Assembly: GCA_017936685.1 (NCBI GenBank)
Contig: JAGBFA010000013.1
Coordinates: 111,118-175,117, forward strand
Direction of reading: 5' to 3'
Source of the DNA: Alistipes sp.
Lineage (GTDB): Bacteria > Bacteroidota > Bacteroidia > Bacteroidales > Rikenellaceae
DNA length: 64,000 bases
Shown: one piece after another, positions 1,175 to 37,949 of the stretch
Layout: every line of letters starts with the position of its first letter
Numbering within the stretch: the first letter of the stretch is position 1
Position numbers and translations under genes: made by a program
Notes under the pieces: generated by a model
What the model was told of the DNA's origin: nothing
Database searches by the model: none
What the model saw: the letters and a program-made list of their open reading frames with translations, nothing else

Positions 1175-3211
1175 ATGAAAAGATTATTGCAATTTGTTTT
1201 TGCTCTCGCGGCGATGTTTCTGTCTCTGCCGACGATGGCACAGATGCCTGCCGTCGACGAGAACACCGTGACGGTGAAGTGGTCGGCCTCGGCCGAGCAG
1301 ATCGACGGCGACCTCTATCGTCTGACCATTCGCGGCGATATAGCCGAGGGCTGGCATACCTATCCGCTGACCAACATGTTCTCTCCTACGGAGGTGACCT
1401 TCGCCGATGCCGAGGGCTATACCCTTGCTGGCGAGATGAAAGAGACCGCGCCTACGCGCGACTACGACGGCGATGCGGTCTACTTCGACAGGATCGTGCT
1501 GACGCAGGATCTGCGCGTGGCAGCCGCCACGGCGCATGTCAAAGGCGAGGTGATGTGGATCGCCTGCATCGAGGGCGCATGCCACTCGCCCGAGTATTGG
1601 GAGTTCGATGTCGCCGTGGAGCATAAGGGTGCTGCGGCCGTCGTAGCTCCGACACAAAACGATGACGCTGCCGCAGCAAGCGAGGGCGCGGCTGGCGACA
1701 ATGAGACGGATAATGCCGCAGAGACCGACTCTGCCGGTGAGACTGCCGCGGCCGAGAGTGCCGAGCCGCAGACCGACGGCGAATCCGATGCCGGTGCTCC
1801 GTTCGGCTGGGGACTTATCATCGAGGCCATATTGTGGGGCTTCGCCGCTCTGCTCACCCCGTGCGTGTTCCCCATGGTGCCGATGACCGTATCGTTCTTC
1901 ATCAAGGGCAGCTCGACGCCGGCCGCCGGCCGCTTCAAGGCTCTGATGTACGGTCTGTTCATCATACTGCTATACATAGTCCCGATAGCCGTCATTATAC
2001 TCATCACGCGTTTTGTGGGCGGCGATGCCGTGACGGCCGACATATTCAACTGGCTGGCTACGCACTGGTTCCCCAACATTCTGTTCTTCATCGTGTTCAT
2101 GATCTTCGCGGCTTCGTTCTTCGGCGCGTTCGAGATCACGCTGCCCTCGAAGCTGGTCAACAAGAGCGACCAGGGTGCCGACAAGGGCGGTCTTTTAGGC
2201 ATATTCTTCATGGCACTGACCTTAGTTCTGGTGTCGTTCTCGTGCACGGGTCCGATCGTGGGTACGGTGCTTATCAAATCCACTTCGGGTGAGTTCTGGT
2301 CGCCGATCATCACCATGGCGGCCTTCGCCACGGCTTTCGCCCTTCCCTTCACGCTGCTTGCGTGGTTCCCGTCGGTGTTGAAGACCATGCCTAAGAACGG
2401 CGGCTGGCTCAACTCGGTAAAGGTCGTATTAGGCTTTATCGAGGTGGCTCTGGGCTTCAAGTTCCTCAGCGTGGCCGATCAGACCTACCACTGGCATCTG
2501 CTCGACCGTGAGGTCTATCTGGCCATCTGGATCGTCGTATTCTCGCTGTTGGGCCTCTATTTGTTAGGCAAGATCCGCTTCGCGCACGACTCCAAGGTGG
2601 AGTATCTCTCGGTCAAGCGTCTGGCTTTGGCCATTGTCGTATTCTCGTTCGTAGTCTACCTTATCCCCGGCATGTTCGGCGCGCCGCTCAAAGCTCTGTC
2701 GGGCTATATGCCGCCCATGCAGTCGCAGGATTTCGTGCTCGGCACGGAGAAGTCGCAGAATAAAGCCGTCAAGTATGGCGACGAATTGCATCTGCCGCTG
2801 GGGCTGACCGGCTATTTCGATCTGCAAGAGGGACTCGACGAGGGCAAACGCACGGGCAAACCGCTCTTCGTCGATATTACCGGTCACGGCTGCGTCAACT
2901 GCCGCGAGATGGAGCAGCGCGTGTGGAGCGATCCCCGCGTGTTGGAGATCCTGCGCCGCGACTACATAATCGTCGCCCTCTACGTCGACGACAAGATGTC
3001 GCTCGACAAGGCCGACTACCTCACCACAGCCGACGGCAAGGTGCTCAAAGAGCTGGGTCGTAAGAACAGCTATATCGTGCAGTCTCGTTTCGGCGTCAAT
3101 GCACAGCCGGCCTACGTCTTGCTCTCTCCCGACGATGAGCTGCTTGCTCCCGTCCGCGGCTACAATCTCGATGTAGATGGGTTTGTGGAGTTTCTTAAAA
3201 GCGGCCTTTGA
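1175..3211 (+). CDS. dsbD: Thiol:disulfide interchange protein DsbD
   Basis: 678 residues. It carries reducing equivalents from cytoplasmic thioredoxin across the inner membrane to periplasmic thiol partners. Order seen: signal peptide (1-22); periplasmic N-domain with Cys131 and Cys136; an Ala/Glu/Asp-rich linker (about 155-208); a membrane core of about eight helices with Cys230 (LLTPCVFPMVP) and Cys357 (SFSCTGPIVG); and a C-terminal thioredoxin-like domain with Cys573-Val-Asn-Cys576. All three cysteine pairs needed for the relay are present. The start is the ATG at 1175, which gives a proper signal peptide; an in-frame upstream extension from 1097 lies in the predicted leader. A family A palindrome begins at the stop codon. 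Confidence 0.95.
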   Translation: MKRLLQFVFALAAMFLSLPTMAQMPAVDENTVTVKWSASAEQIDGDLYRLTIRGDIAEGWHTYPLTNMFSPTEVTFADAEGYTLAGEMKETAPTRDYDGDAVYFDRIVLTQDLRVAAATAHVKGEVMWIACIEGACHSPEYWEFDVAVEHKGAAAVVAPTQNDDAAAASEGAAGDNETDNAAETDSAGETAAAESAEPQTDGESDAGAPFGWGLIIEAILWGFAALLTPCVFPMVPMTVSFFIKGSSTPAAGRFKALMYGLFIILLYIVPIAVIILITRFVGGDAVTADIFNWLATHWFPNILFFIVFMIFAASFFGAFEITLPSKLVNKSDQGADKGGLLGIFFMALTLVLVSFSCTGPIVGTVLIKSTSGEFWSPIITMAAFATAFALPFTLLAWFPSVLKTMPKNGGWLNSVKVVLGFIEVALGFKFLSVADQTYHWHLLDREVYLAIWIVVFSLLGLYLLGKIRFAHDSKVEYLSVKRLALAIVVFSFVVYLIPGMFGAPLKALSGYMPPMQSQDFVLGTEKSQNKAVKYGDELHLPLGLTGYFDLQEGLDEGKRTGKPLFVDITGHGCVNCREMEQRVWSDPRVLEILRRDYIIVALYVDDKMSLDKADYLTTADGKVLKELGRKNSYIVQSRFGVNAQPAYVLLSPDDELLAPVRGYNLDVDGFVEFLKSGL

Positions 3212-3601
3212 TTTTTCGTGAAAAGGCGTCATTTGCTTCGCCTCGCTCAAATCCGCAAATGGGCAGTACGTTGAGTACAGCCCATCTGCGGATTTTTCAC
3301 GTGCGGCTTGCAACTAACGCCTTTTGACGAAAAATCTGCGCGTAATTCTTTGGAGGTTTTCCGTGAAAAGCGGCATTCTGCTGCCGCTCGCTCCATTGTC
3401 CGAACGGGTAGTACGTCAAGTACACCCCGTCCGCCCAATGTTCGTTGCGCGTTGTATAATACCGCTTTTGACGAAAAATCTTTTCCATGAAAATGCCGTA
3501 TCTGCTTCCTCTCCTCGTCACTCGCCAATGGGCAGTACGTCAGTACAGCCCATCGTCTCACTCTGTCGGAGAGTCGCATCTGCGGCATTTTGATGAAAAA
3601 G
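3211..3601 (+). repeat. Palindromic repeat cluster A1-A2-A3 at the 3' end of dsbD
   Basis: Three nested inverted repeats of about 120-125 bp: A1 3211-3335, A2 3357-3479, A3 3480-3601. Outer arms are of the type TTTTTCGTGAAAAGGCGT and ACGCCTTTTGACGAAAAA; each unit has an inner palindrome centred on GTACGT..GTAC. The arms differ between units but remain complementary within each unit. A1 starts at the last base of the dsbD stop codon. Small open frames on both strands here are by-products of the palindromes. Confidence 0.85.
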
Positions 3602-3619
3602 TGGCGCATAATTCTTTGG

Positions 3620-4333
3620 AGACTATTTCCATTGTTTTGTCATTCTGAATGAAACGTAGTGGAGTGAAGAATCCGGTTGGGGACTATGTGCGTGGTCGAT
3701 AAGTTTGTCGTCCCCAACCAGATGCTTCGCTTCACTCAGCATGACATATCCCACCCTGTCATTCTGAGGAGGACGGAACGTCCGACGTGAGAATCTCTTT
3801 TGGCCGACAAAGGCACTTTTCACCCGACAACCGTGCTCCCGCCCGCGAGACTCCCACGTCGCAACTGCGTTGCTCCTCGGAGTGACAGCAGGGTGTGGCG
3901 AGACTCCCACGTTGCCTGCGGCTCCTCGGAGTGACGATGTGGTTGCCATGTCTTCCACAACCGGATTCTTCACTTCGCGAAGCTCCGTTCAGAATGACAC
4001 GCGGGATCTGTCATTCTGAGGAGCGTGCTATGCACGCGACGTGAGAATCTCTTTTTTGTCGGCAAACTCCTGTTCGGCAACCGCACTCCCGCCAGCGAGA
4101 CTCCCACGGTCGGGCAATGCCCTCACTCGGAGTGACAACACACCTGCCCTGTCATTCTGAGTGAAACGAAGAATCCGGTTGTGGATTATATGCGTGGTCG
4201 ATATACCCACCCTGTCATTCTGAGTGGAATGAAATGAAACGAAGAATGACAGGACAGAGGGAATAGTCGCGCACAGATTCTTTGCTACGTTACACTCCGC
4301 TCAGAATGACAAAACAGTGGAAATAGTCTACAC
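3620..4333. repeat. Family B (CATTCTGA) repeat block
   Basis: About 700 bp of interleaved inverted copies of two repeat types. Type I reads TGTCATTCTGA..GAAGAATC..GGTTGGGGAC, with its inverse near 3709-3746. Type II reads TGTCATTCTGAGGAG..GACGTGAGAATCTC, with inverse copies reading GAGACTCCCACGTCGC..CTCCTCGGAGTGACA. The block is bounded by inverted arms AGACTATTTCCAYTGTTTTG (starting near 3620 and ending near 4333). No credible gene lies here. Confidence 0.8.
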
Positions 4334-4348
4334 AGAACCACAACCGTC

Positions 4349-4467
4349 TTTTCGTCAAAAGCGGTATTATACCACGCAAACGAAGATCGCCCAGATGGGA
4401 CGTACTGGCGTACTTCCCATTTGGGCGAGCAAGTGCGCGGCCGTAGAGTGCCGCTTTTCGCGAAAAT
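4349..4467 (-). repeat. Palindromic repeat unit A4 at the 3' end of deoC
   Basis: Family A unit in reverse orientation, starting next to the deoC stop codon. Inner stem ATGGGA/TCCCAT around GTAC..GTAC; outer arms AGCGG/CCGCT type. Confidence 0.85.
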
Positions 4468-4468
4468 A

Positions 4469-5344
4469 TTAGAAGTACTTGATATCCTTGTCTTCTATGG
4501 CCGAGAGTATGTTGTTGGCGGCCGATGAGGCTCCTATGCGGAACAGATCGGTCGTGAGCCACTCCTTGCCCAGTATCTCCTCGACGATGGTGTAGTAGAG
4601 TGCGGCATCGGTCGGGGTGCGCACGCCGCCGGCAGCCTTGAAGCCGACCTTGCGACCTGTGGCGTTGTAGTAGTCCTTGATGGCATGGCACATGACGAAT
4701 GCAGCCTCGGGCGTTGCGGCAACGTCGATCTTGCCGGTCGAGGTCTTGATGAAGTCGGCACCGGTGAACATCGACAGGAGCGATGCCTTGCGGATCAGCT
4801 CGGGTGTCTTCAATGCGCCCGACTCGATGATGACCTTGAACACTACGTCTTTGGCCTCGTTGCGCAGCAGCTCCACCTCGCTTGCCGCCTCGTCGTATGC
4901 GCCCGTGAGCATCTTGCCCACGTTGAGCACTACGTCGATCTCGTCGGCACCGTTCTCGATGGCCATGGCCACCTCCAATGCCTTGACCTCGATGAAGGTC
5001 TGCGACGAGGGGAACCCTCCTGCGACGCTGGTTATGCGCATCGGGGTCGACTCCACTGCCAGGCCGACAGTCTCGACGAATGACGGATAGATGCAGATCG
5101 ATGCGACATTGGGTATATGCGGATATTTGTCATAGAACTCCACGGCTTTGCGGGCGAACGCCGTAACCGATTCCACGGAGTCGTTGCATGACAAAGTCGT
5201 AAGATCGATGGCCGAGTAGCAGAACTTGTAGACATCGATATTCTCGTTGCGGTTGGCTGCAACCTTGATCTTGGCTACCTCTTTGGCAACCTGCGCCTCG
5301 GTATGTGCAGGCGCATATTTTTCCAGCTCCTTTGAGTAATCCAT
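4469..5344 (-). CDS. deoC: Deoxyribose-phosphate aldolase
   Basis: 291 residues. It cleaves 2-deoxyribose-5-phosphate to glyceraldehyde-3-phosphate and acetaldehyde in deoxynucleoside breakdown. The catalytic region shows FIKTSTGK, with the Schiff-base Lys at about residue 200, the second essential Lys in GFKAAGGVRT (about 236) and the conserved Asp of EIDVVLNVG. The start at 5344 (MDYSKELEKY) is preferred over an in-frame extension reaching 5569, because the extension runs through repeat sequence and a TATATTTG promoter box lies 25 bp upstream of this ATG. It is a single gene facing away from the C1 peptidase 3' end, with its own repeat unit after the stop. Confidence 0.95.
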   Translation of the reverse strand: MDYSKELEKYAPAHTEAQVAKEVAKIKVAANRNENIDVYKFCYSAIDLTTLSCNDSVESVTAFARKAVEFYDKYPHIPNVASICIYPSFVETVGLAVESTPMRITSVAGGFPSSQTFIEVKALEVAMAIENGADEIDVVLNVGKMLTGAYDEAASEVELLRNEAKDVVFKVIIESGALKTPELIRKASLLSMFTGADFIKTSTGKIDVAATPEAAFVMCHAIKDYYNATGRKVGFKAAGGVRTPTDAALYYTIVEEILGKEWLTTDLFRIGASSAANNILSAIEDKDIKYF

Positions 5345-5368
5345 AGTGCAATCCTTAGTTTTGTTATA

Positions 5369-5399
5369 CAAATATACGCAAATTATCTGACAAGACAAC
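5369..5399 (-). promoter_or_regulatory. Promoter for deoC
   Basis: On the minus strand, TATATTTG (5369-5376) with GTTG 19 nt upstream (5396-5399). The -7 box is good and the -33 box partial; predicted leader about 20 nt. Confidence 0.55.
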
Positions 5400-5489
5400 T
5401 TCCGCCGTTTTCTTTTTTCGCGGAAAATAGGTCGTGGGGCTTCTGCTGCCTGCCTGTCGACTGTGGAAAATGTTTTGTATCGCATGCTT

Positions 5490-5575
5490 GACAAAGGAGC
5501 GATTCTCACGTCGGACGTTCCGCCCTCCTCAGAATGACAGAACAGTGGAAATAGTCTCCAAAGAATCATGTGCTA
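5490..5575. repeat. Family B type II remnant with linker
   Basis: GATTCTCACGTC, the mini-hairpin GGACGTTCC, CTCCTCAGAATGACA, then the linker GTGGAAATAGTCTCC and AAAGAAT. It lies between deoC and the family A cluster, in the same order as in the other arrays. Confidence 0.7.
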
Positions 5576-5818
5576 CTTTTTCATCAAAAGGTATCAGTTG
5601 CAACGCAACGCCGGAGCGAAGCGATGGGATATACTATCGTATTTCCCATTGCTGAGCAACAAGGCGCGGACGCAAATGATGCCTTTTCATGGAAAAGTTT
5701 TCGTCAAAAGCGGTATTATACAACGCAAACGAAGATCGCCCAGATGGGACGTACTGACGTACTTCCCATTTGGGCGAGCAAGTGCGCGGCAGTAGAATGC
5801 CGCTTTTCACGAAAAATT
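5576..5818 (-). repeat. Palindromic repeat cluster A5-A6 at the 3' end of the C1 peptidase gene
   Basis: Two reverse-oriented family A units, A6 (5698-5818) directly after the peptidase stop codon and A5 (5576-5698) behind it. A5 carries ATAC..GTAT in place of GTAC..GTAC, a paired substitution. Confidence 0.85.
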
Positions 5819-5819
5819 A

Positions 5820-7019
5820 TTACAATCCGAGCTTCTTGCGAATAGCCTTAGGTATGGCGTTCTTGTTGACCATGATCGACATGGTCTTGTACTCTACGAA
5901 CGGACGCGAGAAGTAGTAGTAGCCGTCGTATGGCTGGCGAACGTCCCACGAGTTCTTTATCTTGTAGAAGCGTGCGCCGGTCTGATCGGTGGCGTAGCCC
6001 ACGATCTGCATGCCGTGGTCGTCGGTGGTCTCGTAGTTGTCGAATGCCTCCTGACGCATCTGCTGTGTGATGCTCTTCTCGCGGATAGGCTTCTCGAAGC
6101 TGTACAGAGCCTGCTGACGCTCGGCTGCGGTGAGCTTGCCCCAACGCTCGGCCTCGGTGCCCTCCATGCTCTCCACGTCGTCCTCGGGTATGATACCTAT
6201 GGCCTTGGTGCGGTTGAAGCCCAGCTCGCTGACATCGGCACCCCACTCGGCGGTGTAGCCGTTGTCGATGGCGTAGTCGAGTACCTGCATAAGCTCGTCG
6301 AGGGGCAGGTTGTACTGGCTGTGCCAACGCCAGTTATCGGGTATTTCGAGTATGAACGACTCGTAGAAGGGGTGATGCGTGAACGAGGTCAGATCGACAT
6401 AGTCGTCGAGGTCGATGGGCAGCGATTCGGCGAACGAACGGGGCGTGTACTCCTTGCCGTTGTAGGTGAATGTCTCGGGCATCTTGCCGAAATAGGCATC
6501 GAGAATGCCGTTGAGACCATCTTGCCAGGCTGTCGTGAGCTTCTTGTTGGGTGCTTTTACTACTGACTCGACATATGCCTTCAACACGGCATCGATCTCG
6601 TTGAATACGGGTTTGTCGGTGCCGTAGTTCAGGCCGGGATAGACCTCCGTCGGGACTATGCCGTAGTCGCGGATAGCCGTTATTACATCGCCGCCGTTAC
6701 CGCCCACAGCGAAGTTGAGCGCGCCGTGCAGACGCACATACTTTACCGCCTTCTCGAAGTAGATGTTGCGCACGATCCACATGGGAGAGAGTGCCACTTC
6801 CTGGCCTCCGGCACGCATGATCTCGCTCTCCAAGAATCCGAGAGCCGAGAATGCCCAGCATGTGCCGCTGCGGAACTGATCCTTGACAGGGGTCGACGGA
6901 TTTATCTTCACGTCGGTGAACACATACCCTTCGGGTGCGGTGTTCGTGTCGGGTTGTTGTGCCGAGACCATGCCGCAACAGAGCAGGCCCAAGACGGCAG
7001 AAAACATTTTGATCTTCAT
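5820..7019 (-). CDS. Secreted C1-family cysteine peptidase (bleomycin hydrolase/PepC-like)
   Basis: 399 residues with an N-terminal signal peptide (1-20, cleavage after VSA). Papain-like catalytic residues are visible: Cys54 in QFRSGTCWAFSA, His335 in DDHGMQIVGY and Asn356 in KIKNSWDV. The layout, with Cys near the N-terminus and His and Asn close to the C-terminus around a long insert, resembles the C1B aminopeptidase C/bleomycin hydrolase group. The signal peptide places it in the periplasm or outside the cell, unlike cytoplasmic PepC. It probably trims peptides for uptake; no specific substrate can be inferred. A weak promoter-like GATATTTG lies about 38 bp upstream. Family A repeats abut the stop. 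Confidence 0.88.
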   Translation of the reverse strand: MKIKMFSAVLGLLCCGMVSAQQPDTNTAPEGYVFTDVKINPSTPVKDQFRSGTCWAFSALGFLESEIMRAGGQEVALSPMWIVRNIYFEKAVKYVRLHGALNFAVGGNGGDVITAIRDYGIVPTEVYPGLNYGTDKPVFNEIDAVLKAYVESVVKAPNKKLTTAWQDGLNGILDAYFGKMPETFTYNGKEYTPRSFAESLPIDLDDYVDLTSFTHHPFYESFILEIPDNWRWHSQYNLPLDELMQVLDYAIDNGYTAEWGADVSELGFNRTKAIGIIPEDDVESMEGTEAERWGKLTAAERQQALYSFEKPIREKSITQQMRQEAFDNYETTDDHGMQIVGYATDQTGARFYKIKNSWDVRQPYDGYYYFSRPFVEYKTMSIMVNKNAIPKAIRKKLGL

Positions 7020-7116
7020 ATTATTTTGTTTTGTTTTAAGGTGTTCGTCATTGGCAAATATCTCGTCTGTGGATCGTGCAAGGGCGGTACACCTCCTCTC
7101 CCGATCCGTCTGGCAG

Positions 7117-9417
7117 TTATTTCTTGCTTTTGGCCACGATGCTCAGGCAGTCGTCGTATGTCAGCTGCTCGATCTTTGAGCCTTTGGGCAGGCGGTAGTT
7201 CTTGCCCTTGTAGGCTATGTATGCACCGTAGCGGCCGTCCTTTATGACCATGTCGGCATCTTCGGCGAAGCTCTTCAACGGAGTGGAGGCAGCCTTGGCG
7301 TGCTCGTTGTGCTCGCGTATCAGCTCCTCGGCGCGCTCGCGGGTTACGGTGTAGGGGTCGTCGCTCTTAGCAAGCGAGGCGAAGGTCTTGCCGTGGCGTA
7401 CGTAAGGTCCGAACTTGCCTATGCCGACCATCAGCTTCTCGCCCTCCCAGTCGCCCAGATCGCGCGGCATGTCGAACAGTTCCAACGCCTCCTGCAACGT
7501 GATGGACTCGATGAGCTGTCCCTTTTTGAGCGATGCGAAGCGCGGCTTCTCACCCTCTTTGCCCTCGATCTCTACCATAGGTCCGTAGCGGCCTATGCGT
7601 GCCTTGACGGTGTGTCCGCTTGCGGGATCGACTCCCAAAACGCGCACTTGGGCGTTCTTGTCGGTCTGCATGCCGATGGCCGTGTCGACCATCTTGTGGA
7701 ACGGGTGGTAGAAGTCGTCGATCATCTTGGTCCACGATATGTCGCCCTCGGCCACGCGGTCGAACTCCTTTTCGACGTTGGCCGTGAAGTTGTAGTCCAT
7801 GATCGAGGCGAACTGCGATTCGAGATAGTCGTTGACCAACATGCCTATGTCGGTAGGCGAGAGGCGGTTCTTCTCCTTGCCGAAGGTCTCGCTCAGCCGC
7901 TTCTCCGAGATCTTGCCGCCCGAGAGCGTCAGTTGCAGATAGCTGCGTTTCTGTCCGTCGCGGTTCTGCTTGACCACGTAGCCGCGGTTGATGATCGTGG
8001 TGATGGTCGGCGCGTAGGTCGACGGGCGGCCTATGCCCAACTCCTCCAGACGCTTGACCAATGCCGCCTCGTTGTATCGTGCCGGTGCCTGCGTGAAACG
8101 TTCCGTTGCCGTGATCGTTGCGGCCGTCACGCTGTCGCCGACTGCCATCTTTGGCAGTACGCCGCCCTCGCCCTCGCCGTTCTGCTCCTCGTCGGTCGAC
8201 TCGGAGTAGAGACGCAGGAAGCCGTCGAAGCGAATGACCTCGCCCGTTGCCACGAACTGTCCTCTGCCGTTGTCGCTCTCGATGACGATCTGCGTGCGGT
8301 CTAACTCGGCCGGCACCATCTGCGATGCGACGGTGCGTTTCCATATAAGGTCGTAGAGACGTTTCTCGGCTGCGGTGCCCTCGATCTGCTCGCGCTCGAT
8401 GTAAGAGGGGCGTATGGCCTCGTGCGCCTCCTGTGCGCCCTTCGACTTGGTCTTGTAGTTGTGCGGATAGGAGTATTTGGCTCCGAACAGACGCGTGATC
8501 TCCTCCTTGCACTGCCCTATGGCCTGCTGCGAGAGGTTGACCGAGTCGGTACGCATGTAGGTGATCAGACCCTGCTCGTAGAGCCGCTGTGCCACCGACA
8601 TGGTCTGCGATACGCTCATGCCCAACTTGCGGCCGGCCTCCTGCTGCAATGTGGAGGTGGTGAAGGGTGCCGCGGCATAGCGTTGTACGGGCTTCTCCTC
8701 CGACTTGACTACCGTGAAGCGTGCGCCGATGCAGCCCGAGAGGAACTGCTCTGCCTCTTCGCGCCGTTCGAACGACGATGACAGCGTGGCCTTGAAAAGC
8801 GTCTTCGAGGGGTCGCTCTCGGAGTAGAACTGAGCCACGACGCGGAACAGCGGGGTCGAGTTGAACGCTATGATCTCGCGTTCGCGCTCGACGATCAGCC
8901 GCACGGCCACGCTCTGCACGCGGCCTGCCGACAACGACGGACGCACCTTCTTCCACAGCACGGGCGAGAGCTCGAAGCCCACCAGACGATCCAGCACGCG
9001 GCGTGCCTGCTGCGCGTTGACCAAATTCATGTCGATGGTGCGCGGATTCTCGATGGCGTTCAATATGGCGTGACGCGTGATCTCGTGGAATACGATACGT
9101 TTGGTCTGATCCACCGGAAGACCCAGCACCTCGGCCAGATGCCATGCTATGGCCTCTCCCTCGCGGTCCTCATCGGAGGCGAGCCATACGGTCTTCACAC
9201 TCTTCGACAGCCGCGCCAGCTCGTCGACGACCTTGCGCTTGTCGCTCGGAATCTCGTATGCGGGCGCGTAGTTCTCGTTAAGATTTATTCCCAAATCCTT
9301 TTTTGCCAGATCGCGTATATGTCCGAAACTCGACTTGACCACGAAATCCTTGCCCAGAAACTTCTCTATGGTTTTGGCCTTGGCCGGTGACTCGACTATT
9401 ACTAAATTCTCCTGCAT
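7117..9417 (-). CDS. topA: DNA topoisomerase I
   Basis: 766 residues. A type IA topoisomerase that relaxes negative supercoils. The TOPRIM domain has Glu9 (IVESPAKAKTI) and the acidic cluster SDEDREGEAIAWH (from about 81); the active-site Tyr287 is in LITYMRTDS. The C-terminal part (about 590-766) contains glycine-rich topoisomerase C-terminal repeats of the GRYGPMVE and GKFGPYVRHG type instead of cysteine zinc fingers, common in Bacteroidota. It starts at 9417 with MQENLVIVES. It follows the DUF4270 gene on the same strand, with a small hairpin between them. Confidence 0.97.
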   Translation of the reverse strand: MQENLVIVESPAKAKTIEKFLGKDFVVKSSFGHIRDLAKKDLGINLNENYAPAYEIPSDKRKVVDELARLSKSVKTVWLASDEDREGEAIAWHLAEVLGLPVDQTKRIVFHEITRHAILNAIENPRTIDMNLVNAQQARRVLDRLVGFELSPVLWKKVRPSLSAGRVQSVAVRLIVEREREIIAFNSTPLFRVVAQFYSESDPSKTLFKATLSSSFERREEAEQFLSGCIGARFTVVKSEEKPVQRYAAAPFTTSTLQQEAGRKLGMSVSQTMSVAQRLYEQGLITYMRTDSVNLSQQAIGQCKEEITRLFGAKYSYPHNYKTKSKGAQEAHEAIRPSYIEREQIEGTAAEKRLYDLIWKRTVASQMVPAELDRTQIVIESDNGRGQFVATGEVIRFDGFLRLYSESTDEEQNGEGEGGVLPKMAVGDSVTAATITATERFTQAPARYNEAALVKRLEELGIGRPSTYAPTITTIINRGYVVKQNRDGQKRSYLQLTLSGGKISEKRLSETFGKEKNRLSPTDIGMLVNDYLESQFASIMDYNFTANVEKEFDRVAEGDISWTKMIDDFYHPFHKMVDTAIGMQTDKNAQVRVLGVDPASGHTVKARIGRYGPMVEIEGKEGEKPRFASLKKGQLIESITLQEALELFDMPRDLGDWEGEKLMVGIGKFGPYVRHGKTFASLAKSDDPYTVTRERAEELIREHNEHAKAASTPLKSFAEDADMVIKDGRYGAYIAYKGKNYRLPKGSKIEQLTYDDCLSIVAKSKK

Positions 9418-9445
9418 TGTTTATCTCCAACTTCTTCATACAGCA

Positions 9446-9469
9446 AAACCTAAGCGTTAACTTAGGTTT
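9446..9469 (-). terminator. Possible weak terminator between DUF4270 gene and topA
   Basis: 9-bp stem AAACCTAAG/CTTAGGTTT with 6-nt loop; no long T-run on the minus strand, so termination may be partial. Confidence 0.4.
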
Positions 9470-9492
9470 GCCGTCGTTCGACTCATTGTTAT

Positions 9493-11905: not shown

Positions 11906-11907
11906 GA

Positions 11908-29227: not shown

Positions 29228-29262
29228 ATGTTTTTCGTATGACGCTTATGGAGTCGTGCGGG

Positions 29263-30159
29263 TTATTTGCCGTTCCAGACCTTGTAGCGCGACGGCGAGA
29301 CACCCACACGTTGCTTGAAGTATTTGCCGAAGAAGGATTGCGAGGTGAAGTTGAGCCGCTCGGCGATCTGGTTGATGCTCAGACCCGAGTATTTCAGCAG
29401 GCGTTTGGCCTCGTAGACCACGGCTTCGTCGATTAGTTTCGAGGCGTTGCGGCCGCTCTTCTTCTTGACAATCAGCGACAGGTATTTGGGTGTGATGCCC
29501 ATCTGCGAGGCGTAGAACTCCACGCTGCGCTCCGAGTTGCAGTGGTTCCGCAGAAGCGAGATGAAGCTGTTGAACAGCTCGTCGGTGCGGTTGCTGACCT
29601 CCTCGCCGCCCAATGAGTTGCGCCGCTGTATGATACCCATCACATAGTGGAACATGGCGGCGAACAGTGCGTCTATCACCTTGTCGCGCGTGGCGGTCGG
29701 ACTGTCGTCGTTCAGCACCGAACGCATCAGTTTCGACAGGTCGTTGATGTATGCCGCCTCCGCCTGTTCGACTCTCATGCACGGCTCGCCCATGAACCCG
29801 TGATATATCGAGATCACCTCCTGCGTATCGATATGTATGCCGTTGAGGTAGGAGCGCGAGTAGGTGAGCATGTAGCCCGACGAGCGGATAGAGGCCTTGA
29901 CCTGCTCGATGACGGTGTTCTCGTTGAAGATGAACAGCGTGTTGGGGCGCAGCTCGCACAGTTTGCCGTTGATGCGTATCTTGGCCGTACCGCTGACGGT
30001 TATGCCGATCGAAACACCCTGTATGAGCGTGGTGATGTCGTCGAGATTCTTGAACGACACTAACGGCGTGATGACTATGTTGTCGGAGTAATAAGATGTT
30101 CCCGAGAGGTTTTTCAACTTCTCTATCGACGTGCGTTTTATTCCGTCTTCTCTCTTCAT
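29263..30159 (-). CDS. AraC family transcriptional regulator
   Basis: 298 residues: N-terminal cupin-like sensor region (about 1-150) and a C-terminal pair of helix-turn-helix motifs (about 195-295), with the typical FYASQMGITPKYLSLIVKK and the family-end signature NQIAERLNFTSQSFFGKYFK..GVSPSRYK. Begins 4 bp after the lipid kinase gene, so it is probably in the apbE transcript. Target unknown. Confidence 0.92.
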   Translation of the reverse strand: MKREDGIKRTSIEKLKNLSGTSYYSDNIVITPLVSFKNLDDITTLIQGVSIGITVSGTAKIRINGKLCELRPNTLFIFNENTVIEQVKASIRSSGYMLTYSRSYLNGIHIDTQEVISIYHGFMGEPCMRVEQAEAAYINDLSKLMRSVLNDDSPTATRDKVIDALFAAMFHYVMGIIQRRNSLGGEEVSNRTDELFNSFISLLRNHCNSERSVEFYASQMGITPKYLSLIVKKKSGRNASKLIDEAVVYEAKRLLKYSGLSINQIAERLNFTSQSFFGKYFKQRVGVSPSRYKVWNGK

Positions 30160-30163
30160 GCGG

Positions 30164-31042
30164 CTATTTGCTCTTAGGGTTTGCGGCGGGTGCCAGCACC
30201 TCTATCTTGCTGCCCAGACAGCTTATCACTAACGGGAACTCCTCGCCCTTCTGTCCGTCGACATCGGTCGGCTCCTGCAATGTCGATGTCAGTTCAAGCT
30301 CCGCGCCCTTGAAGTAGCGCACCGAGCGCGGCGTGCCTCCGCAGAGGTAGCGTATCATGTGCCAGCACGACACTATCGGATTGCGCTTTTCGAGCATGAT
30401 GCAGTCGAACAGACCGTCGTCGATGCGCGCCGTGCGCGCCAGACGGAACCGGCCGGCGGTCTCGCCGTTGAATATCAATACCATCAGCGCATTGAAATCG
30501 AACTCCTCGCCGTCGCACATCACGTGCAGGGGTACTCCGTGCAGATGCAGCAGGTCCTTTATGCCGGTGAAGATGTAGGCTAACTTGCCTATTTTGTGTT
30601 TGAGCGAGTCGGAGGTGTGCTGCGAGGTGGTGGTGAATATTCCGAAACTCAATATGTTGATGAAGAACAATCCGTTGACCAAACCGCAATCGACCTTGCG
30701 CGGCACGCCTTCGACGATCTGACGTGCGGCCTTGAAGATGTCGCTCTCCATGCCGAGCGCACCGGCGAAGTCGTTGGCCGTTCCTGCCGGAATGACGGCG
30801 ATCGTGGGCGACAGCAGTTTTTTCTGCATCGCATTGACCACATAGTTGATCGTTCCGTCACCGCCGCATATCACGGCCAGCTGGGTCTGTTCGTCGCCTT
30901 CGAACGGGTTTTTGCCGAACTCGATGAGCTTGGCGTGAATGTCGTATCCCGCCTGGCGGAAGATGTCGAGCAGACGATCGACGTTGCGTGCGATCTTGCC
31001 TCGGCCGGCCTTGACATTGTACAGCAAAAGAGCTTTTTTCAT
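30164..31042 (-). CDS. Diacylglycerol kinase-like lipid kinase (YegS/BmrU type)
   Basis: 292 residues. DAGK catalytic domain: GGDGTINYVVNAM (glycine-rich ATP site) and IPAGTANDFAGALGM. It phosphorylates diacylglycerol or a related lipid at the inner membrane. The ATG at 31042 (MKKALLLYNVKAGRGK) is chosen; the frame extends to 31276 but that part overlaps apbE. The gap to apbE is 46 bp. Confidence 0.9.
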   Translation of the reverse strand: MKKALLLYNVKAGRGKIARNVDRLLDIFRQAGYDIHAKLIEFGKNPFEGDEQTQLAVICGGDGTINYVVNAMQKKLLSPTIAVIPAGTANDFAGALGMESDIFKAARQIVEGVPRKVDCGLVNGLFFINILSFGIFTTTSQHTSDSLKHKIGKLAYIFTGIKDLLHLHGVPLHVMCDGEEFDFNALMVLIFNGETAGRFRLARTARIDDGLFDCIMLEKRNPIVSCWHMIRYLCGGTPRSVRYFKGAELELTSTLQEPTDVDGQKGEEFPLVISCLGSKIEVLAPAANPKSK

Positions 31043-31088
31043 ATATGATATCGGATATTTGATGTTGAGTTTATGATATTGCCGCCGG

Positions 31089-32117
31089 CTACTCCGACAG
31101 CATCTTGCGCATGCCCTCCGAGTATACCACGCGATACTCCTCGTCGCCATCGCCTGCGAATATGAAGTAGTACAGCAGGTCGTCGCAGCACTCGGCCAGC
31201 TCCACGGCTCCGTCCGAGCCCATGGCCAGCAGCATCGTTCCGGCGGCATCGGCCTCGGCGCATGTGGGTGCCACAACGGTTACCGACAGCAGCTGCGAGA
31301 CGGCACTGCGGCCGGTGGTCGGATCGATCGTGTGCGCCACCTTGCGTCCCTCGGAATCGGTCCAGTAGCGGCGGTAGTTGCCTGAGGTGGCCACGCCGGC
31401 ATCGGTGACGCTCAGCACACGCTGTACATCTTCCATCGTGTCGTTGCCGTCGTATGGCGTCTCGATGCCCACTCTCCACCGCTCGCCGTGCTCGTTGCGC
31501 CCCTTGCAGCGCACCTCGCCGCCTATGTCTACGATGTAGTCCGAGCTCTCCATCTCGCGCTCCAACATCTCGGCCATCATATCCACCACGTAGCCCTTGG
31601 CTATGGAGTTGAAGTCGAGCTGTATCCGCGGGTCCTCCTTGATGAGGCGTCCGTCGGCGATGCGTATCTTGTCGTAGCCGACGAATTGCAGCAGCGAATC
31701 GATGTCGGGTGTGGCGTTCGGGTCGGGCTGCTTGCGCACGAAGCCCCACGCCTCCACCAACGGTTTGACGGTTATGTCGTAGCGGCCGTCGCTCAAAAGA
31801 CTGAACCGGCGCGCCAGCTCGATGTTGAATATGATGTGCTCGTCGAGCGAATCGGTCTCATTGCGGTTTATGCGGCTGAGCAGCGAGCCCTCGTCGAAGA
31901 TCGACATGGAGGCCTTTGCCAACGAGTCGATCTGCTCCACACGTCGCGTTATCTCTGCGGCGGAGTGGGTCGTGCGGGCGTTGATGTAGACAAATGTTCC
32001 AAGCGACAAGCCCTTGACCTGTACGTATTCGGCCTTGTCTGCCGGACCGCACGACACTGCGGCGGTGGCTATCAGCGGCATGACGCGGCGGAACCATCTG
32101 TAAATACTGCTTTTCAT
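31089..32117 (-). CDS. apbE: FAD:protein FMN transferase, lipoprotein
   Basis: 342 residues. The signal peptide ends in a lipobox (AAVSCGPAD). Body motifs of the ApbE family: LDFNSIAKGYVVD, DIGGEVRCKG and the ATSGNYRRYW and HTIDPTTGR segments binding FAD. It attaches FMN covalently to Thr residues of flavoproteins such as NqrB/C and RnfG/D subunits, acting outside the inner membrane. Those targets are not in this window. Start at 32117, because an upstream extension to 32231 crosses the promoter. Confidence 0.93.
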   Translation of the reverse strand: MKSSIYRWFRRVMPLIATAAVSCGPADKAEYVQVKGLSLGTFVYINARTTHSAAEITRRVEQIDSLAKASMSIFDEGSLLSRINRNETDSLDEHIIFNIELARRFSLLSDGRYDITVKPLVEAWGFVRKQPDPNATPDIDSLLQFVGYDKIRIADGRLIKEDPRIQLDFNSIAKGYVVDMMAEMLEREMESSDYIVDIGGEVRCKGRNEHGERWRVGIETPYDGNDTMEDVQRVLSVTDAGVATSGNYRRYWTDSEGRKVAHTIDPTTGRSAVSQLLSVTVVAPTCAEADAAGTMLLAMGSDGAVELAECCDDLLYYFIFAGDGDEEYRVVYSEGMRKMLSE

Positions 32118-32141
32118 GCTGAGTATGTAATGATTAGGCAA

Positions 32142-32172
32142 CAAAGATAATGTTTGTCGGGCAATTATGCAA
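32142..32172 (-). promoter_or_regulatory. Promoter for apbE operon
   Basis: Minus-strand TATCTTTG at 32142-32149 with GTTG 20 nt upstream (32170-32173). Confidence 0.55.
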
Positions 32173-32417
32173 CAGTTGACCAAAAGATTTATTATTGTAC
32201 TGTTTTTCCATGCGCTGTCATCTCCGGCCATTATCGGTTGAGCCTTAAATCATTAACCCCTTGCCGGCCGGTTTTGTTCTATTATGGAACAAAAAACGAC
32301 TCTTGTGCTATGCCGTCCGACTGCGTTTTTCGCATGCTCCGGCGGCTGCCCTGCATGACATATTCGGAAAATAGATCGCGAGAGGTGCCGAAAAAGCTCT
32401 TTTTCTATGAAAAAGGC

Positions 32418-32448
32418 TTTGCAAATAGAGATTTTTAATCTAACTTTG
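32418..32448 (+). promoter_or_regulatory. Promoter for rpsO
   Basis: TTTG (32418-32421), exactly 19 nt, TAACTTTG (32441-32448). The remaining gap to apbE (32150-32417) shows short A/T-rich inverted stretches but no gene. Confidence 0.8.
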
Positions 32449-32554
32449 CCACACGCTCTGGCAGGATCACGGTAAGGGTGATTTGTCGTAGAGTGCAACC
32501 GTGGTGCCGGTCTCTGGAAAATGCGATCGTCGTCACATAAAAATTTTTAAATTT

Positions 32555-32827
32555 ATGGCATATTTAACACCTGAGAAAAAGCAGGAGTTGTTCGGTCAGT
32601 ACGGTAAATCGACAACCGATACGGGTTCGCCAGAGAGCCAGATCGCGTTATTCACCTACCGTATCAACCACCTTACGGATCACATGAAGAGCAACAAGCA
32701 CGACTTCGGTACGCAGCGTTCGCTGCTGCGTTTAGTAGGTAAGCGTCGCCAGTTGCTCGAATACTTGAAGGAGGTCGACATCGAGCGTTATCGTGCAATC
32801 ATCAAGACGCTCAATCTCCGCAAGTAG
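32555..32827 (+). CDS. rpsO: 30S ribosomal protein S15
   Basis: 90 residues, full length. Binds 16S rRNA in the central domain. Recognisable by TGSPESQIALFTYRINHLT, HDFGTQRSLLRLVGKRRQLL and the C-terminal IIKTLNLRK. The start is at 32555; the frame is open upstream to 32501 but that lies in the roughly 100-nt leader. It precedes pnp, the widespread rpsO-pnp order. Confidence 0.98.
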   Translation: MAYLTPEKKQELFGQYGKSTTDTGSPESQIALFTYRINHLTDHMKSNKHDFGTQRSLLRLVGKRRQLLEYLKEVDIERYRAIIKTLNLRK

Positions 32828-32930
32828 GAGTGAGAGAGTGATGAAGGCAGCTTGCGGTTGCCTTCATCTTCGTTGAAAATTCAAGACAAGAGACAAGATA
32901 CAAGGACGAATTTTTAGAAGATTTTTTAGA

Positions 32931-35168
32931 ATGGAAGAAAACAAGTTGTACAATGCTGTACAGAAGACGATCACTCTGTGCGACGGCCGCGAAGTTACCA
33001 TCGAAACGGGTAAGCTCGCCAAGCAGGCCGACGGAGCTGTGGTCGTAAAGATGGGCGACACGATGCTGCTGGGAACCGTCGTTGCCGCCAAGGACGCAAA
33101 GGAGGGCACCGATTTCATGCCTCTGCAAGTGGAGTATAAGGAGAAATACGCTTCGTGCGGACGCATTCCCGGAGGTTTCATGAAACGCGAGGGCAAGGCC
33201 GGCGACTCGGAGATTCTGGTCGCACGACTCATCGACCGCGCTTTACGCCCGCTGTTCCCCGCCGATTACCATGCAGAGGTATTCGTAACGGTCAATTTGA
33301 TATCGGCCGACAAGGATATTCAGCCCGATGCACTGGCCGGCCTGGCCGCTTCGGCTGCTTTGGCCTGCTCGGACATTCCGTTCGGAGGCCCCATTTCGGA
33401 GGTGCGCGTAGCACGCATCGACGGTGAGTATGTCATCAACCCCGGTTTCTCGCAGATGCCCCAGGCCGATCTGGATATCATGGTCGGCGGTACGATCGAC
33501 AATATCCTGATGGTCGAGGGCGAGATGAAGGAGGTGTCGGAGGAGGTCATGCTCGGTGCCATCAAGTTCGCTCACGAAGAGATCAAGAAGCAGTGCGCCG
33601 TACAGATCGAACTGTCGAAGGAGTTAGGCAAGGACGTGAAACGCACCTATTGCCACGAGACCAACGACGAGGAGCTGCGCCAGACTATCATCACGGAGCT
33701 GTACGACAAGGCTTACGCCATCGCCACCAGCGGTACGATGAAGCACGAGCGCGAGGATAAGTTCAACGAGTTGGAGGCCGAGTTCGCATCTCGCTATACC
33801 GAGGAGGAGTTGGTCGAGAAGGCTCCGCTGATCCACAAATATTTCCACGACGACGTACAGAAGAAGGCCATGCGCAACATGATCCTCGACGAGGGCAAGC
33901 GTCTGGACGGCCGCCGCACCGACGAGATCCGTCCCATCTGGTGCGAGGTAGGCTATCTGCCCGCAGCCCACGGTTCGGCCATCTTCACCCGCGGCGAGAC
34001 GCAGTCGCTGACTACGGTCACCCTCGGCACCAAGCTCGACGAGAAGATGCGCGACGAGGTGCTGGTTCAGGGCAGCGACCAGTTCGTGCTGCACTATAAC
34101 TTCCCGCCCTTCTCTACGGGCGAGGCACGTCCGGCACGCGGTCTGAGCCGTCGTGAGATCGGTCACGGCCACCTTGCATGGCGCGCCTTGAAGCCTATGG
34201 TTCCGCTGGGCGAGGAGAATCCCTATGCCGTGCGCGTGGTGTCGGATATCCTCGAATCTAACGGTTCGTCGTCTATGGCTACCGTCTGCGCCGGTACGCT
34301 GGCTCTGATGGACGCCGGTGTGAAGTTGAAGAAGCCCGTATCGGGTATCGCCATGGGTCTGATCTCGGACTCTGCGACCGGCCGCTGGGCAGTGTTGTCG
34401 GATATCCTCGGCGATGAGGACCACCTCGGCGACATGGACTTCAAGGTGACGGGTACCAAGGACGGTATTACGGCCACGCAGATGGATATCAAGGTCGACG
34501 GCCTCTCGTACGAAGTGCTGGCCAAGGCTTTGGAGCAGGCACGTCAGGGTCGTCTCTACATTCTCGACAAGCTGACCGAGTGCATAGCCGAGCCTCGCGC
34601 CGACTATCGTCCGTTCGTACCGCGCATCGTACAGATCACCATTCCTCAGGATATGATCGGTGCAGTGATAGGCCCGGGCGGCAAGGTTATCCAGGATATA
34701 CAGAAGACCACCTCGACGACCATCACCATCACCGAGGTCGACGACAAGGGTATCGTCGACATCTTCGGTCAGGACAAGGATTCGATGGACGCAGCCCTGA
34801 ACCGCATCAAGGGCATCGTGGCCGTACCGGAGGTAGGCGAGGTCTACAACGGCAAGATCCGCAGCATCGTGGCATTCGGCGCATTCGTCGAGATCCTGCC
34901 CGGCAAAGACGCACTGCTCCACATCTCGGAGATCGACTACAAACGTTTCGAGACCATGGAGGAGACCGGTCTGAAAGAGGGCGACATGATCGAGGTCAAG
35001 CTCATAGGTCTGGATCCCAAGACCAACAAGCTCAAGCTGTCTCATAAGGCTCTGCTGCCCAAGCCCGAGGGCTGGGTCGAGCGCGAACCCCGCGAGCGCA
35101 AGCCGCGCGAGGACCGTGGCGACAAGGGCGAGCGTCGCGAACATCGCGAGCGTCGTGAGAAGCGATAG
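32931..35168 (+). CDS. pnp: Polyribonucleotide nucleotidyltransferase (PNPase)
   Basis: 745 residues. Phosphorolytic 3'-to-5' exoribonuclease of mRNA decay. Two RNase PH domains ([19 protein letters not shown] in the first; [20 protein letters not shown] in the second), then a KH domain ([17 protein letters not shown], about 577) and an S1 domain ([20 protein letters not shown], about 640). The C-terminal 25 residues are a basic/acidic Arg-Glu-rich tail. 103 bp after rpsO. Confidence 0.98.
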
Positions 35169-35235
35169 CGGCCGGATCTATATATAATATAAGTGTGCAA
35201 ACAGAATTTTTTCAAACTAACTAAATTAAACAATT

Positions 35236-36993
35236 ATGAAAAATCTTTTTAGAGTAAGCCTCGTGCTTGCAGTTGTAGCCTTGACGGTGTCGAGCTGTAA
35301 CTGTTTCAAGAAGATGGCCAAGAACATGGAAGATGTGAATCTGACGTGCACTCCCGAGGTTCTCGTGCTCAACAACGGTAAGGTCGATGCCGACATCACC
35401 GTAACGTTCCCCGTAGAGTATTTCAACAAGAAGGCCGTCGTAAAGGTAACTCCGGTTATCGTATTCGAGGGCGGCGAGGTTGCTGGTACCACTCAGTATC
35501 TGCAAGGCTCGAAGGTCGATGACAACTACACCGTTATCGACAAGAAGAACGGCGGCAAGTACACTCAGCACGTTTCGTTCCCCTATGACAGCCGCATGCG
35601 CGAGTGCGAGTTGCAGCTGCGTGCCGAGATCAAGTGCCCGAAGGGCAAGTGCAAGGAGTTCACGCTGGTGAACCTCAATACGGGTGCCGTTCCTACCAAG
35701 GAGGAGGCTGCCGTTCTGGCTGCCGGCGGTGCCGAGGCTGATGCCTTGAAGCGCGCATTCGGTCTTACGATTGCCGTAGGTGTCAACACCTTGCAGGAGG
35801 AGATCGACTATGCAAGTGCCATGAAGGTTATGGACTCTGGTTACAAGAACGTGACTACCGAGGTTACCAAGGCCAACTATATGTATCAGATCAACTCTTC
35901 GAACCTCTCGAAGAAGGCTGCCGACACCGAGGAGCTCCGCGCATTCCAGCAGAAGGCCGAGGCTCAGAAGGATAACGACCGCATCAAGCAGAACCTCTAT
36001 GTAAACGGTTACGCTTCGCCCGATGGTCCCGAGAAGTTCAACGACAAGCTCTCAGCCGCTCGTAGCCAGTCTGGTAAGAAGGCTGCCGAGAAACTGCTCT
36101 CTGAGATCGAGCTGCCCCTCGACGCCGCTTCTTACGGTGAGGACTGGGAAGGCTTCAAGGAGCTGGTTGCAGCTTCGGACATCGAGGACAAGCAGATGAT
36201 TCTGTCGGTTCTCAACATGTACTCGTCATCTTCGGAGCGCGAGTCTGAGATCAAGAACATGTCGCAGGTATTCGAGACCTTGAAGAAGGATATCCTTCCT
36301 CAGTTGCGTCGTGCTCAGCTGGTCAACAGCTCTGACATCACGGGCAAGACCGACGACGAGATGGTAGCTCTGGTACGTGCCGGCAAACTGGGTGAGCTCA
36401 ACGACAAGGAGCTGCTCCACATCGCCGAGAGCGGCAAGCTCAACGCTCAGGAGAAGATCGCCGTTTTGGAGTATGCTGCCAAGACCTACAAGACTCCGGC
36501 CGCTTACAACAACCTCGGTGTGGCTTATGCCAAGAACGGCGAGGCTCAGAAGGCTGCCGATTCGTTCGACAAGGCTGTCAAGGCTGGTGCCAACTCTTCG
36601 GAGGTCAACAACAACATCGCTCTTGCCAACCTTATGAACGGCAACGTCGACAAGGCTAAGCAGTATGCCGCAGGCAGCACCGCCGAGACCAAGGCTCTGG
36701 TAGAGGCTGCACAGGGTAATTACAGCGCAGCTCAGGCTCAGCTCAACGGCTACAACGCTGCTATCGCAAGTGCCATGAACAACGATTTCACCGCTGCCAA
36801 GCAGTATATCGCCAACGACAAGACCGCTAAGGCCGACTACCTGCGTGCTATCATCGCAAGCAAGGAGGGCGACATGAACACCGCAGCAGCTCAGCTCAAG
36901 AGTGCCATCGCCAAGGAGCCGGCTTACACTCAGCGTGCGAAGACCGATGTCAACCTTCGCGAGCTTATTAAGAGTGGTGCAATTGCTCTCTAA
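35236..36993 (+). CDS. TPR-containing lipoprotein with OmpA-like segment
   Basis: 585 residues. Lipobox TVSSCNCF gives lipid anchoring. The central region has an OmpA/MotB-like peptidoglycan-binding pattern (YVNGYASPDGPEKFNDKLSAAR, about 255-280) and the C-terminal third contains tetratricopeptide-like repeats (AYNNLGVAYAKNGEAQKAADSFDKAV, about 418-443). The codon use is unusually even and AAG/GCT-rich compared with neighbours, consistent with high expression. Probably an abundant envelope protein of the outer membrane-peptidoglycan zone. No enzymatic motif seen. Family A repeats begin at the stop codon. Confidence 0.85.
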   Translation: MKNLFRVSLVLAVVALTVSSCNCFKKMAKNMEDVNLTCTPEVLVLNNGKVDADITVTFPVEYFNKKAVVKVTPVIVFEGGEVAGTTQYLQGSKVDDNYTVIDKKNGGKYTQHVSFPYDSRMRECELQLRAEIKCPKGKCKEFTLVNLNTGAVPTKEEAAVLAAGGAEADALKRAFGLTIAVGVNTLQEEIDYASAMKVMDSGYKNVTTEVTKANYMYQINSSNLSKKAADTEELRAFQQKAEAQKDNDRIKQNLYVNGYASPDGPEKFNDKLSAARSQSGKKAAEKLLSEIELPLDAASYGEDWEGFKELVAASDIEDKQMILSVLNMYSSSSERESEIKNMSQVFETLKKDILPQLRRAQLVNSSDITGKTDDEMVALVRAGKLGELNDKELLHIAESGKLNAQEKIAVLEYAAKTYKTPAAYNNLGVAYAKNGEAQKAADSFDKAVKAGANSSEVNNNIALANLMNGNVDKAKQYAAGSTAETKALVEAAQGNYSAAQAQLNGYNAAIASAMNNDFTAAKQYIANDKTAKADYLRAIIASKEGDMNTAAAQLKSAIAKEPAYTQRAKTDVNLRELIKSGAIAL

Positions 36994-37529
36994 TTTTTCG
37001 TGAAAAGGCGTCATTAGTGGCACCTCAATCATTGTCCCGAACGGGCAGTACGTCGAGTACAGCCCGTCCGGGACAATTTCATGTCGGCACCGCTACTAAC
37101 GCCTTTTGACGAAAAATTGGGTTGGTGGTTCTTTGGAGGTTTTCCGTGAAAAGCGGCATTCTACTGCCGCGCGCTTGCTCCGCCGAATAGGAAATACGTC
37201 AGTATGTCCTATCCGGCGGATCTTCGTTTGCGTGGTATAATACCGCTTTTGACGAAAAATTGTTTCTTTCCCGTGAAAAGGCATCATTTGCTTCCGCGCT
37301 CTTGTTCGTCCGAATAGGCAGTACGTCGAGTACAGCCTATCCGTCCTCACATCGTTTGCGTAGCAACTAATACCTTTTGACGAAAAAGAGGTGTGGTGCT
37401 TAGCTTGTTTTTTATGAAAATACCACACCTGCTTCCTCTCCTCGTCGCTCGCCAATGGGCAGTACGCCAGTACAGCCCATCGTCTCGCTCTGTCGGAGAG
37501 TCGCATCTGCGGCATTTTGATGAAAAAGG
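36993..37529 (+). repeat. Palindromic repeat cluster A7-A10 at the 3' end of the TPR lipoprotein gene
   Basis: Four family A units: A7 36993-37117, A8 37139-37260, A9 37266-37388, A10 37408-37529. Inner stems differ between units (ACGGGC/GCCCGT, ATAGGA/TCCTAT, ATAGGC/GCCTAT, ATGGGC/GCCCAT), each self-complementary. A10 is close to A3. A7 starts at the last base of the TAA stop. Confidence 0.87.
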
Positions 37530-37539
37530 GCGCATAATT

Positions 37540-37815
37540 CTTTGGAGTCTATTTCCACTCTGTCATTCTGAGTGGAACGTAGTGAAACGCAGAATCTGGT
37601 TGGAGACTATGTGCATGGACGATATGCCCATTCTGTCATTCTGAGGAGGACGGAACGTCCGACGTGAGAATCTCTCTTTTGGGCGGCAAGTTCCTGCGCG
37701 GCAGCCACCCTCTCGCCAGCGGGAGAGTTATTGCTTGACAAAAAAAGAGACTCTCACGTCGCAACTGCGTTGCTCCTCAGAATGACAGGAACAATGAAAA
37801 TCGTTTCCAAAGAAT
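37540..37815. repeat. Family B block with linker arms
   Basis: Begins with the linker AATTCTTTGGAGTCTATTTC and a type I copy, then a type II copy with the mini-hairpin GACGGAACGTCC (37648-37659) and its inverted partner with CAACTGCGTTG (37764-37775). Ends with the inverted linker TTTCCAAAGAATTATGCGC. No gene. Confidence 0.78.
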
Positions 37816-37822
37816 TATGCGC

Positions 37823-37949
37823 ACTTTTTCGTCAAAAGACGTTAGTTGCAAGCCGCACGTGAAAAATCCGCAGATGGGCTGTACTCGACGTACTGCCCAT
37901 TTGCGGATTTGATCGAGGCGAAGCAAATGACATCTTTTCACGAAAAAGC
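37823..37949 (-). repeat. Palindromic repeat unit A11
   Basis: Reverse-oriented family A unit, nearly identical to A1 when reversed; inner stem AAATCCGCA/TGCGGATTT around GTAC..GTAC. It faces a possible minus-strand small RNA that ends next to it. Confidence 0.85.

Follow-up and report, generated by a model that had tools for sequence, protein, structure and literature searches.

The stretch of DNA analysed here, hereafter the window, comprises 64,000 nucleotides of Alistipes sp. (assembly GCA_017936685.1, contig JAGBFA010000013.1, positions 111,118 to 175,117 of the forward strand) and harbours two islands in which palindromic repeat units of about 122 nt are placed between convergent genes. 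The repeat is an element conserved by shape rather than by letters, often located right behind gene ends, with types that are swapped between sites. Eleven such units had been recognised upon inspection of the letters alone (the sequence-only reading); all eleven are confirmed by their profile positions, with boundaries displaced by 1-2 bases at most, and can be aligned end to end in a single polarity, a property absent from that reading. The features of the two islands are:

3212..3335, + strand, unit 1; left end immediately behind the TGA that closes the DsbD-like gene 1097-3211
3336..3356, + strand, linker between units, contains TTCTTTGGAGG
3357..3479, + strand, unit 2 (profile position)
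3481..3601, + strand, unit 3; subtype with GCGGCA right foot
3612..4340, no strand, TCATTCTGAG-family repeats between two facing arrays
4349..4467, - strand, unit 4; 1 base past the stop codon of the DeoC-like gene 4469-5569 (-)
5576..5696, - strand, unit 5 (profile position)
5698..5818, - strand, unit 6; 3 bases past the stop codon of the Peptidase_C1-like gene 5820-7019 (-; start as given by the model)
36994..37117, + strand, unit 7; left end immediately behind the TAA that closes gene 35236-36993
37140..37260, + strand, unit 8 (profile position)
37266..37388, + strand, unit 9 (profile position)
37408..37528, + strand, unit 10 (profile position)
37538..37815, no strand, TCATTCTGAG-family repeats between two facing arrays
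37824..37947, - strand, unit 11; left end right behind a terminator-like hairpin and T-run on the - strand (by eye)

Each polar unit (117-124 nt with paired ends) extends from the left end TTTTYCRTGAAAA to the right end TTTTGAYGAAAA. Its outer stem, about 20 pairs long and interrupted by a constant G.G mismatch, is followed by a variable middle and by a core consisting of an inner-stem foot with a constant A.C, an ATGGGC-type stem and a constant A.A or A.G, on top of which GTAC/GTAC (or ATAC/GTAT) closes a loop of 2-7 bases. The G.G mismatch, previously noted for most copies, is present in every one of the 42 units aligned, 11 of them in the window and 31 elsewhere in the genome. Equally constant is the A.C at the inner-stem foot (42/42 aligned units and 134/134 full units of the genome), and A.A or A.G is found beneath the GTAC apex in 41 of the 42. 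The linker motif TTCTTTGGAGG recurs after arrays at 3612, 37129, 37538 and 5556 (-).

Conservation of the fold

Paired changes on both arms had been taken as a sign that folding is preserved, and the covariation supports this proposal far above both controls applied. In a set of 36 units, composed of 12 from this genome and 24 of 29 loci fetched from other genomes, the 40-pair structure of the covariance model R1 is occupied by standard pairs to 93.7%, with double changes in 34 of the 40 pairs. The covariation score amounts to 0.554, compared with 0.175 for shuffles that ignore relatedness (0/500 as high) and at most 0.112 for slid versions of the structure, a control that retains relatedness. 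RNAalifold on the 42 units of this genome equally predicts 32 pairs, 18 of them showing double changes. Of the eleven window units, six were folded singly as RNA and compared with dinucleotide shuffles; their folds were 5.95-10.34 standard deviations lower on the top strand and 6.31-12.04 on the bottom strand, with 0/200 shuffles as low every time on both strands. Between genomes the outer stems are wholly different, with a constant GTAC-apex core and a constant spacing of the mismatches. Selection acts on the fold, and the pattern is not shared ancestry of letters.

Asymmetry between the strands

The mismatches tolerated within the stems are not distributed evenly between the two strands. When the paired columns of the full units are read on the strand of the upstream gene, 402 A.C stand against 43 G.T combinations, or 268 against 43 upon exclusion of the invariant A.C pair; counted pair by pair, 19 pairs lean towards A.C and 7 towards G.T. 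In the 36-unit set read on the opposite strand, G.T correspondingly prevails over A.C (116 versus 15). An A.C combination becomes G.U when the complementary strand is read, so that the better fold belongs to the strand opposite the upstream mRNA, in agreement with the folds of single units. The lean is also seen in recent changes among near-identical copies, 19 of which were to A.C and 6 to G.T in stems (p 0.015), compared with 11 versus 14, and thus no lean, at unpaired and loop positions. As the strand opposite the upstream mRNA turns most stem mismatches into G-U pairs, folding of this single strand seems to be selected, and the asymmetry likely reflects selection on one folded strand, either RNA or DNA.

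Distribution and location behind gene ends

In the 2.28-Mb genome the pattern GAAAAN{78,108}TTTTGAYGAAAA has 183 matches and the reversed pattern none. A profile search covering 163.9 kb, that is the pattern-match loci of the genome plus the window, gave 152 matches, of which 134 are full length, forming 87 arrays (41 single, 30 double, 14 triple, one of four and one of five units); these totals include at least 5 units, from 2 arrays, in duplicate, as contigs C2 and C6 share two stretches at 100% identity. These identical stretches, 2.7-2.8 kb each, represent either an assembly duplication or a real duplication.

A covariance-model search of relatives, as proposed together with the sequence-only reading, located the family with model R1 in 37 of 150 genomes of the same bacterial family under strict filters and with at most 23 matches scored per genome. 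Thirty of the 37 belong to the same genus, this genome included, and 7 to three other genera; 113 of the 150 were without a match, which indicates that the element is not required by its host. Among the matches listed for the core pattern in named genomes (at least 80), 71/80 carry Alistipes or Rikenellaceae in their title, many of them from ruminant guts, and of 8 matches titled otherwise and tested against R1, one fits well (L326) and one weakly (L289). Plasmids and phages gave no match for one unit, and none of 9 viral stretches that match the core pattern fits the covariance model, so that carriage by phage or plasmid was rejected.

The left end of the first unit is located at distance 0 from a stop codon in 22 of the 87 arrays and at 1 base in 8, with 47 arrays at -17 to +6; a uniform spread over 100 bases would give about one array per position, and the 87 include two assembly duplicates. 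At distance -10 (6 arrays) the TGA comes from the unit itself. The abutted stop may otherwise be TAA, TGA or TAG, and therefore lies outside the element. Matched units of other genomes likewise begin at stop codons (about ten loci, by eye). Three arrays are confirmed to be located 35-50 nt after tRNA genes, and among the arrays far from a stop codon 6 of 26 come after a hairpin and T-run, with several adjoining promoter-like CAAAGATA boxes (by eye). The orientation of neighbouring genes (convergent 43, tandem 43 of 87 arrays) was not used, as the reading-frame count is disturbed by repeats.

The space behind arrays is occupied by a second, very frequent repeat family, TCATTCTGAG, with 11 sites in the window compared with 0.23 expected (3640-4310, 5528, 37563-37785, 50018 and 57685); of its TCATTYTGAG sites in the window, 9 of 11 are inside the two islands and 2 elsewhere. 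Of 80 arrays, 77 have a motif of this type no more than 1.3 kb downstream. Only 20 of the 80 face another array at that distance or less, and the notion that every repeat island is bounded by units on both sides was rejected.

A function as plain terminator was also rejected, as in a crude test unit-bearing ends showed no excess over reversed sequence, neither in this genome (17/34 versus 14/34) nor in relatives (9/25 versus 14/25), compared with 18/36 versus 9/36 for gene ends without a unit. A simple terminator scan of window 2900-6100 found 6 where 3.3 were expected. GTAC...GTAC cores were observed in hairpins followed by T6-T8 (tails by eye) at the loci L161 (genome G164), L162 (G165) and L253 (a gene end of G038), which are possible links between ordinary terminators and units.

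Turnover between sites

Comparison of orthologous gene ends shows that units are replaced behind genes that persist. Arrays at distance -10 to 25 behind a reading frame of 180 or more codons numbered 52, 15 of which were excluded by name; the first 34 of the remainder, out of 87 arrays in total, were used. The relative G110 possesses 32 orthologs of these 34 gene ends, of which 21 have a unit, 1 a weak one and 10 none; in G038, 29 orthologs divide into 4 with a unit, 2 with a weak one and 23 with none. Full units on both sides allowed an identity comparison for 16 of the 25 unit-bearing ends of the relatives (15 in G110, 1 in G038): gene ends are 87.3% identical, a unit and its positional counterpart 78.3%, a unit and a random unit of this genome 73.9%, and a unit and the best other unit of this genome, chosen from 133, 93.0%. 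That best other unit surpasses the positional counterpart in 15 of the 16 pairs, and 10 of the 16 counterparts do not rise above the random level (77% or less). In the alignments, the junction at the stop codon is unchanged and the unit behind differs between relatives; relatives of two window genes carry a different 3' sequence there, often with a terminator-like hairpin (by eye).

Traces of exchange can also be found within the genome. Partial left ends of 11 or about 20 nt precede full units here and in G110 (by eye) and, nested as they are, look like footprints of replacement. Two chimeric units (C5:110311 and C2:172088) join arms of different types at the apex. The DsbD-like gene faces the DeoC-like gene across island 1 in this genome and the ortholog of locus C6:69380 in G110, which characterizes the islands as points of rearrangement. 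As for an insertion in the manner of a miniature inverted-repeat transposable element (MITE), orthologous gene ends without a unit exist, but flanks are replaced rather than split, so that no target-site duplication is readable.

The loop changes much faster than the remainder of the unit. In nine clusters of near-identical copies (59 units), 30 minimal changes fall into six loop columns and 71 into 111 columns of the body, a rate per column of 5.0 versus 0.64 and thus a 7.8-fold difference with gaps counted; one cluster of ten copies displays eight different loops. A subtype of G110 retains one loop in several copies, which indicates that loops are copied and subsequently change.

Relation to known elements

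The family had not been recognised from its letters, and the searches agree: no Rfam family reaches the gathering threshold in the window other than 3 tRNAs, the one match to units 1-3 at E<=1 being a sub-threshold microRNA model, and searches of the open-licence literature showed no description of such a family for Alistipes or Rikenellaceae. The palindromic Bacteroidetes candidate RNAs HMP2_4205, 1065, 1032 and 4078 (80-132 nt, a range of 106-132 nt being given for palindromic candidates) resemble the units in host phylum, length and reading on both strands, a likeness by description only; they possibly represent an earlier, unnamed sighting of the family (PMC8040213).

With many copies, an intergenic location, a conserved fold and a mosaic with other motifs, the family has the features of an interspersed structured repeat similar to bacterial interspersed mosaic elements (BIMEs). 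Hundreds of interspersed polar palindromes, mixed with linker and TCATTCTGAG repeats as in mosaic BIMEs, likewise recall the repetitive extragenic palindromic (REP) sequences and REPINs, but the units are six times longer than the 20-40 bp REP and come without a Y1_Tnp domain. The Y1 transposase PF01797 was found neither in this genome (88.8% complete) nor in 18 element-bearing relatives; the positive control was recovered in 5 of 14 known genomes. One of 20 element-free relatives encodes it (G060:C20:13102-13458), the sole Y1 transposase among the 38 genomes of the genus searched. Membership in the system of REPs and their RAYT transposases was rejected, in the absence of a Y1 transposase and of a 20-40 bp palindrome with an unpaired GTAG/CGTC tag. 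CGTC-tagged REPs, of 20-40 bp with an unpaired tag, are described as having no dedicated transposase, a trait shared by the units, the bottom strand of which starts with TTTTTCGTC; the CGTC of the units, however, is inside the paired outer stem (PMC3733652).

Enterobacterial repetitive intergenic consensus (ERIC) sequences (IRU/RU-1, 127 bp, enterobacteria) are similar in length, as intergenic imperfect palindromes, in the importance of orientation and in having no gene of their own. The units differ in that they abut stop codons exactly, form arrays, exchange and are without TA ends. Homology was rejected, as one unit gave no blastn match in 20,395 E. coli records. Bacteroidales also harbour the intergenic, MITE-like BrickBuilt elements of Porphyromonas, which are characterised by a 23-nt tandem repeat and located 49-591 nt from genes (PMC4596501); membership was rejected, with 0 tandem arrays of such a core in window 3200-5830.

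Interpretation

Our tentative preference, with a probability slightly short of an even chance, is that the units constitute a structured non-coding polar repeat comparable to REP, ERIC and BIME, a large and exchangeable gene-end hairpin propagated via recombination through a folded single strand. Three observations favour recombination of this kind: the sites are dispensable, one unit can stand in for another, and selection is on the strand other than that of the mRNA. Recombination or template switching through the ends shared by all units would carry copies between sites, with the folded opposite strand, as single-stranded DNA or as RNA of that strand, serving the copying; the structure would be retained since copying requires it. 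On the left, non-functional flanking DNA might be lost as far as the nearest stop codon, terminator or promoter, at which selection would halt the loss. In the mRNA, the unit would form a 3' hairpin at the position held by different 3' sequence in relatives, and consequences for termination or decay, if there are any, would be secondary.

Several points weigh against this interpretation. Searches for Y1 transposase and integron integrase delivered no enzyme for the exchange of units, and ordinary gene conversion, with no special strand, could account for part of it. Abutment to stop codons was counted without a randomised control. Identity to the best other unit, the best of 133, is biased upward, so that the random level is the safer yardstick, and 4 of the 16 units are within 3 points of the identity of their gene ends, as under vertical descent. 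The strand asymmetry is weaker with a looser column set (132:69), and the contrast between stem (23:9) and unpaired positions (11:14) is marginal (Fisher p 0.056); the asymmetry might still be purely mutational in origin. The signals from loop and strand are likewise compatible with plain relaxed selection or with selection at the RNA level.

The main rival is a function for the host in cis, on balance unlikely: units might be used as RNA, either as 3' hairpins (terminator, exonuclease block or an ERIC-like, ribosome-sensitive decay element) or in transcripts from the other side. Units are indeed located in sense at gene 3' ends in place of the other 3' sequence of relatives, unit-like cores occur in the three T-tailed hairpins described above, and ERIC in Yersinia affects the upstream mRNA in an orientation- and ribosome-dependent manner (PMC2229807). 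The favoured strand, on the other hand, is the one opposite the upstream mRNA, the comparison with reversed sequence provides no terminator signal, and many relatives lack a unit at the same genes. The lack of a transposase together with exchange between sites and chimeric units would also be expected if the repeats were passive, remnants of an old expansion that ectopic gene conversion now merely homogenises, with a constant structure owed to conversion between complementary arms and with no present function or mobility; this appears improbable, as compensatory change across several species with different outer stems, together with the strand asymmetry, calls for a selected folded strand.

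BIMEs have been proposed as sites of chromosome structure that involve gyrase and IHF, and a DNA cruciform or protein-binding site would suit palindromes between convergent genes in both window islands and islands that are breakpoints of rearrangement between this genome and G110; as both strands would be used alike, the strand asymmetry is not predicted, and we regard such a role as very unlikely. Polar arrays behind stop codons and folding of the bottom strand are shared with attC recombination sites of an integron-type tyrosine recombinase. The integron integrase TIGR02249, however, gave only matches below the curated cut-off in the 5 genomes searched, whereby integron attC membership was rejected. 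In addition, ordinary genes and not cassettes lie next to the sites, the conserved part of which is the apex, so that such an identity is hardly conceivable.

As to the mode of movement, it seems doubtful, although conceivable, that units move without a REP transposase in such a way that only the strand opposite the mRNA is active, exchange between fixed gene-end sites takes place through that single strand by means of some enzyme, and the tip is opened and rewritten. If so, hairpin rewriting would leave near-identical copies with scrambled loops. Corresponding gene ends that bear different, interchangeable hairpins in sister species constitute a large and easily scored natural experiment. Three old questions on REP, ERIC and BIME thereby become directly testable: whether selection on the fold acts on RNA or on single-stranded DNA, by what means such elements spread in the absence of a transposase, and what causes their accumulation at gene ends. 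The loop and the strand asymmetry provide new handles measurable from sequence alone.

Additional observations

An insert of about 75 bp (CATTTCATGCAC...GGCTTAACGAAAAA) interrupts ten units of the genome (C1:2537, C1:29476, C1:29711, C1:78674, C2:71030, C4:48167, C4:77108, C5:191324, C5:217855 and C15:110400), in 8 of 10 cases at the site GCGTT with GTT on both sides. Such an insert at a recurring internal site is reminiscent of the inserts known from ERIC. A lone relative of the insert seems to be present near window 49960-50000 (by eye). Behind the peptidase ortholog of G110 (locus L198, about 1930-2060), a lone nested palindrome (GCGGCAGCC...CTGCCGCC), not a member of the family but similar in plan, can be seen by eye.

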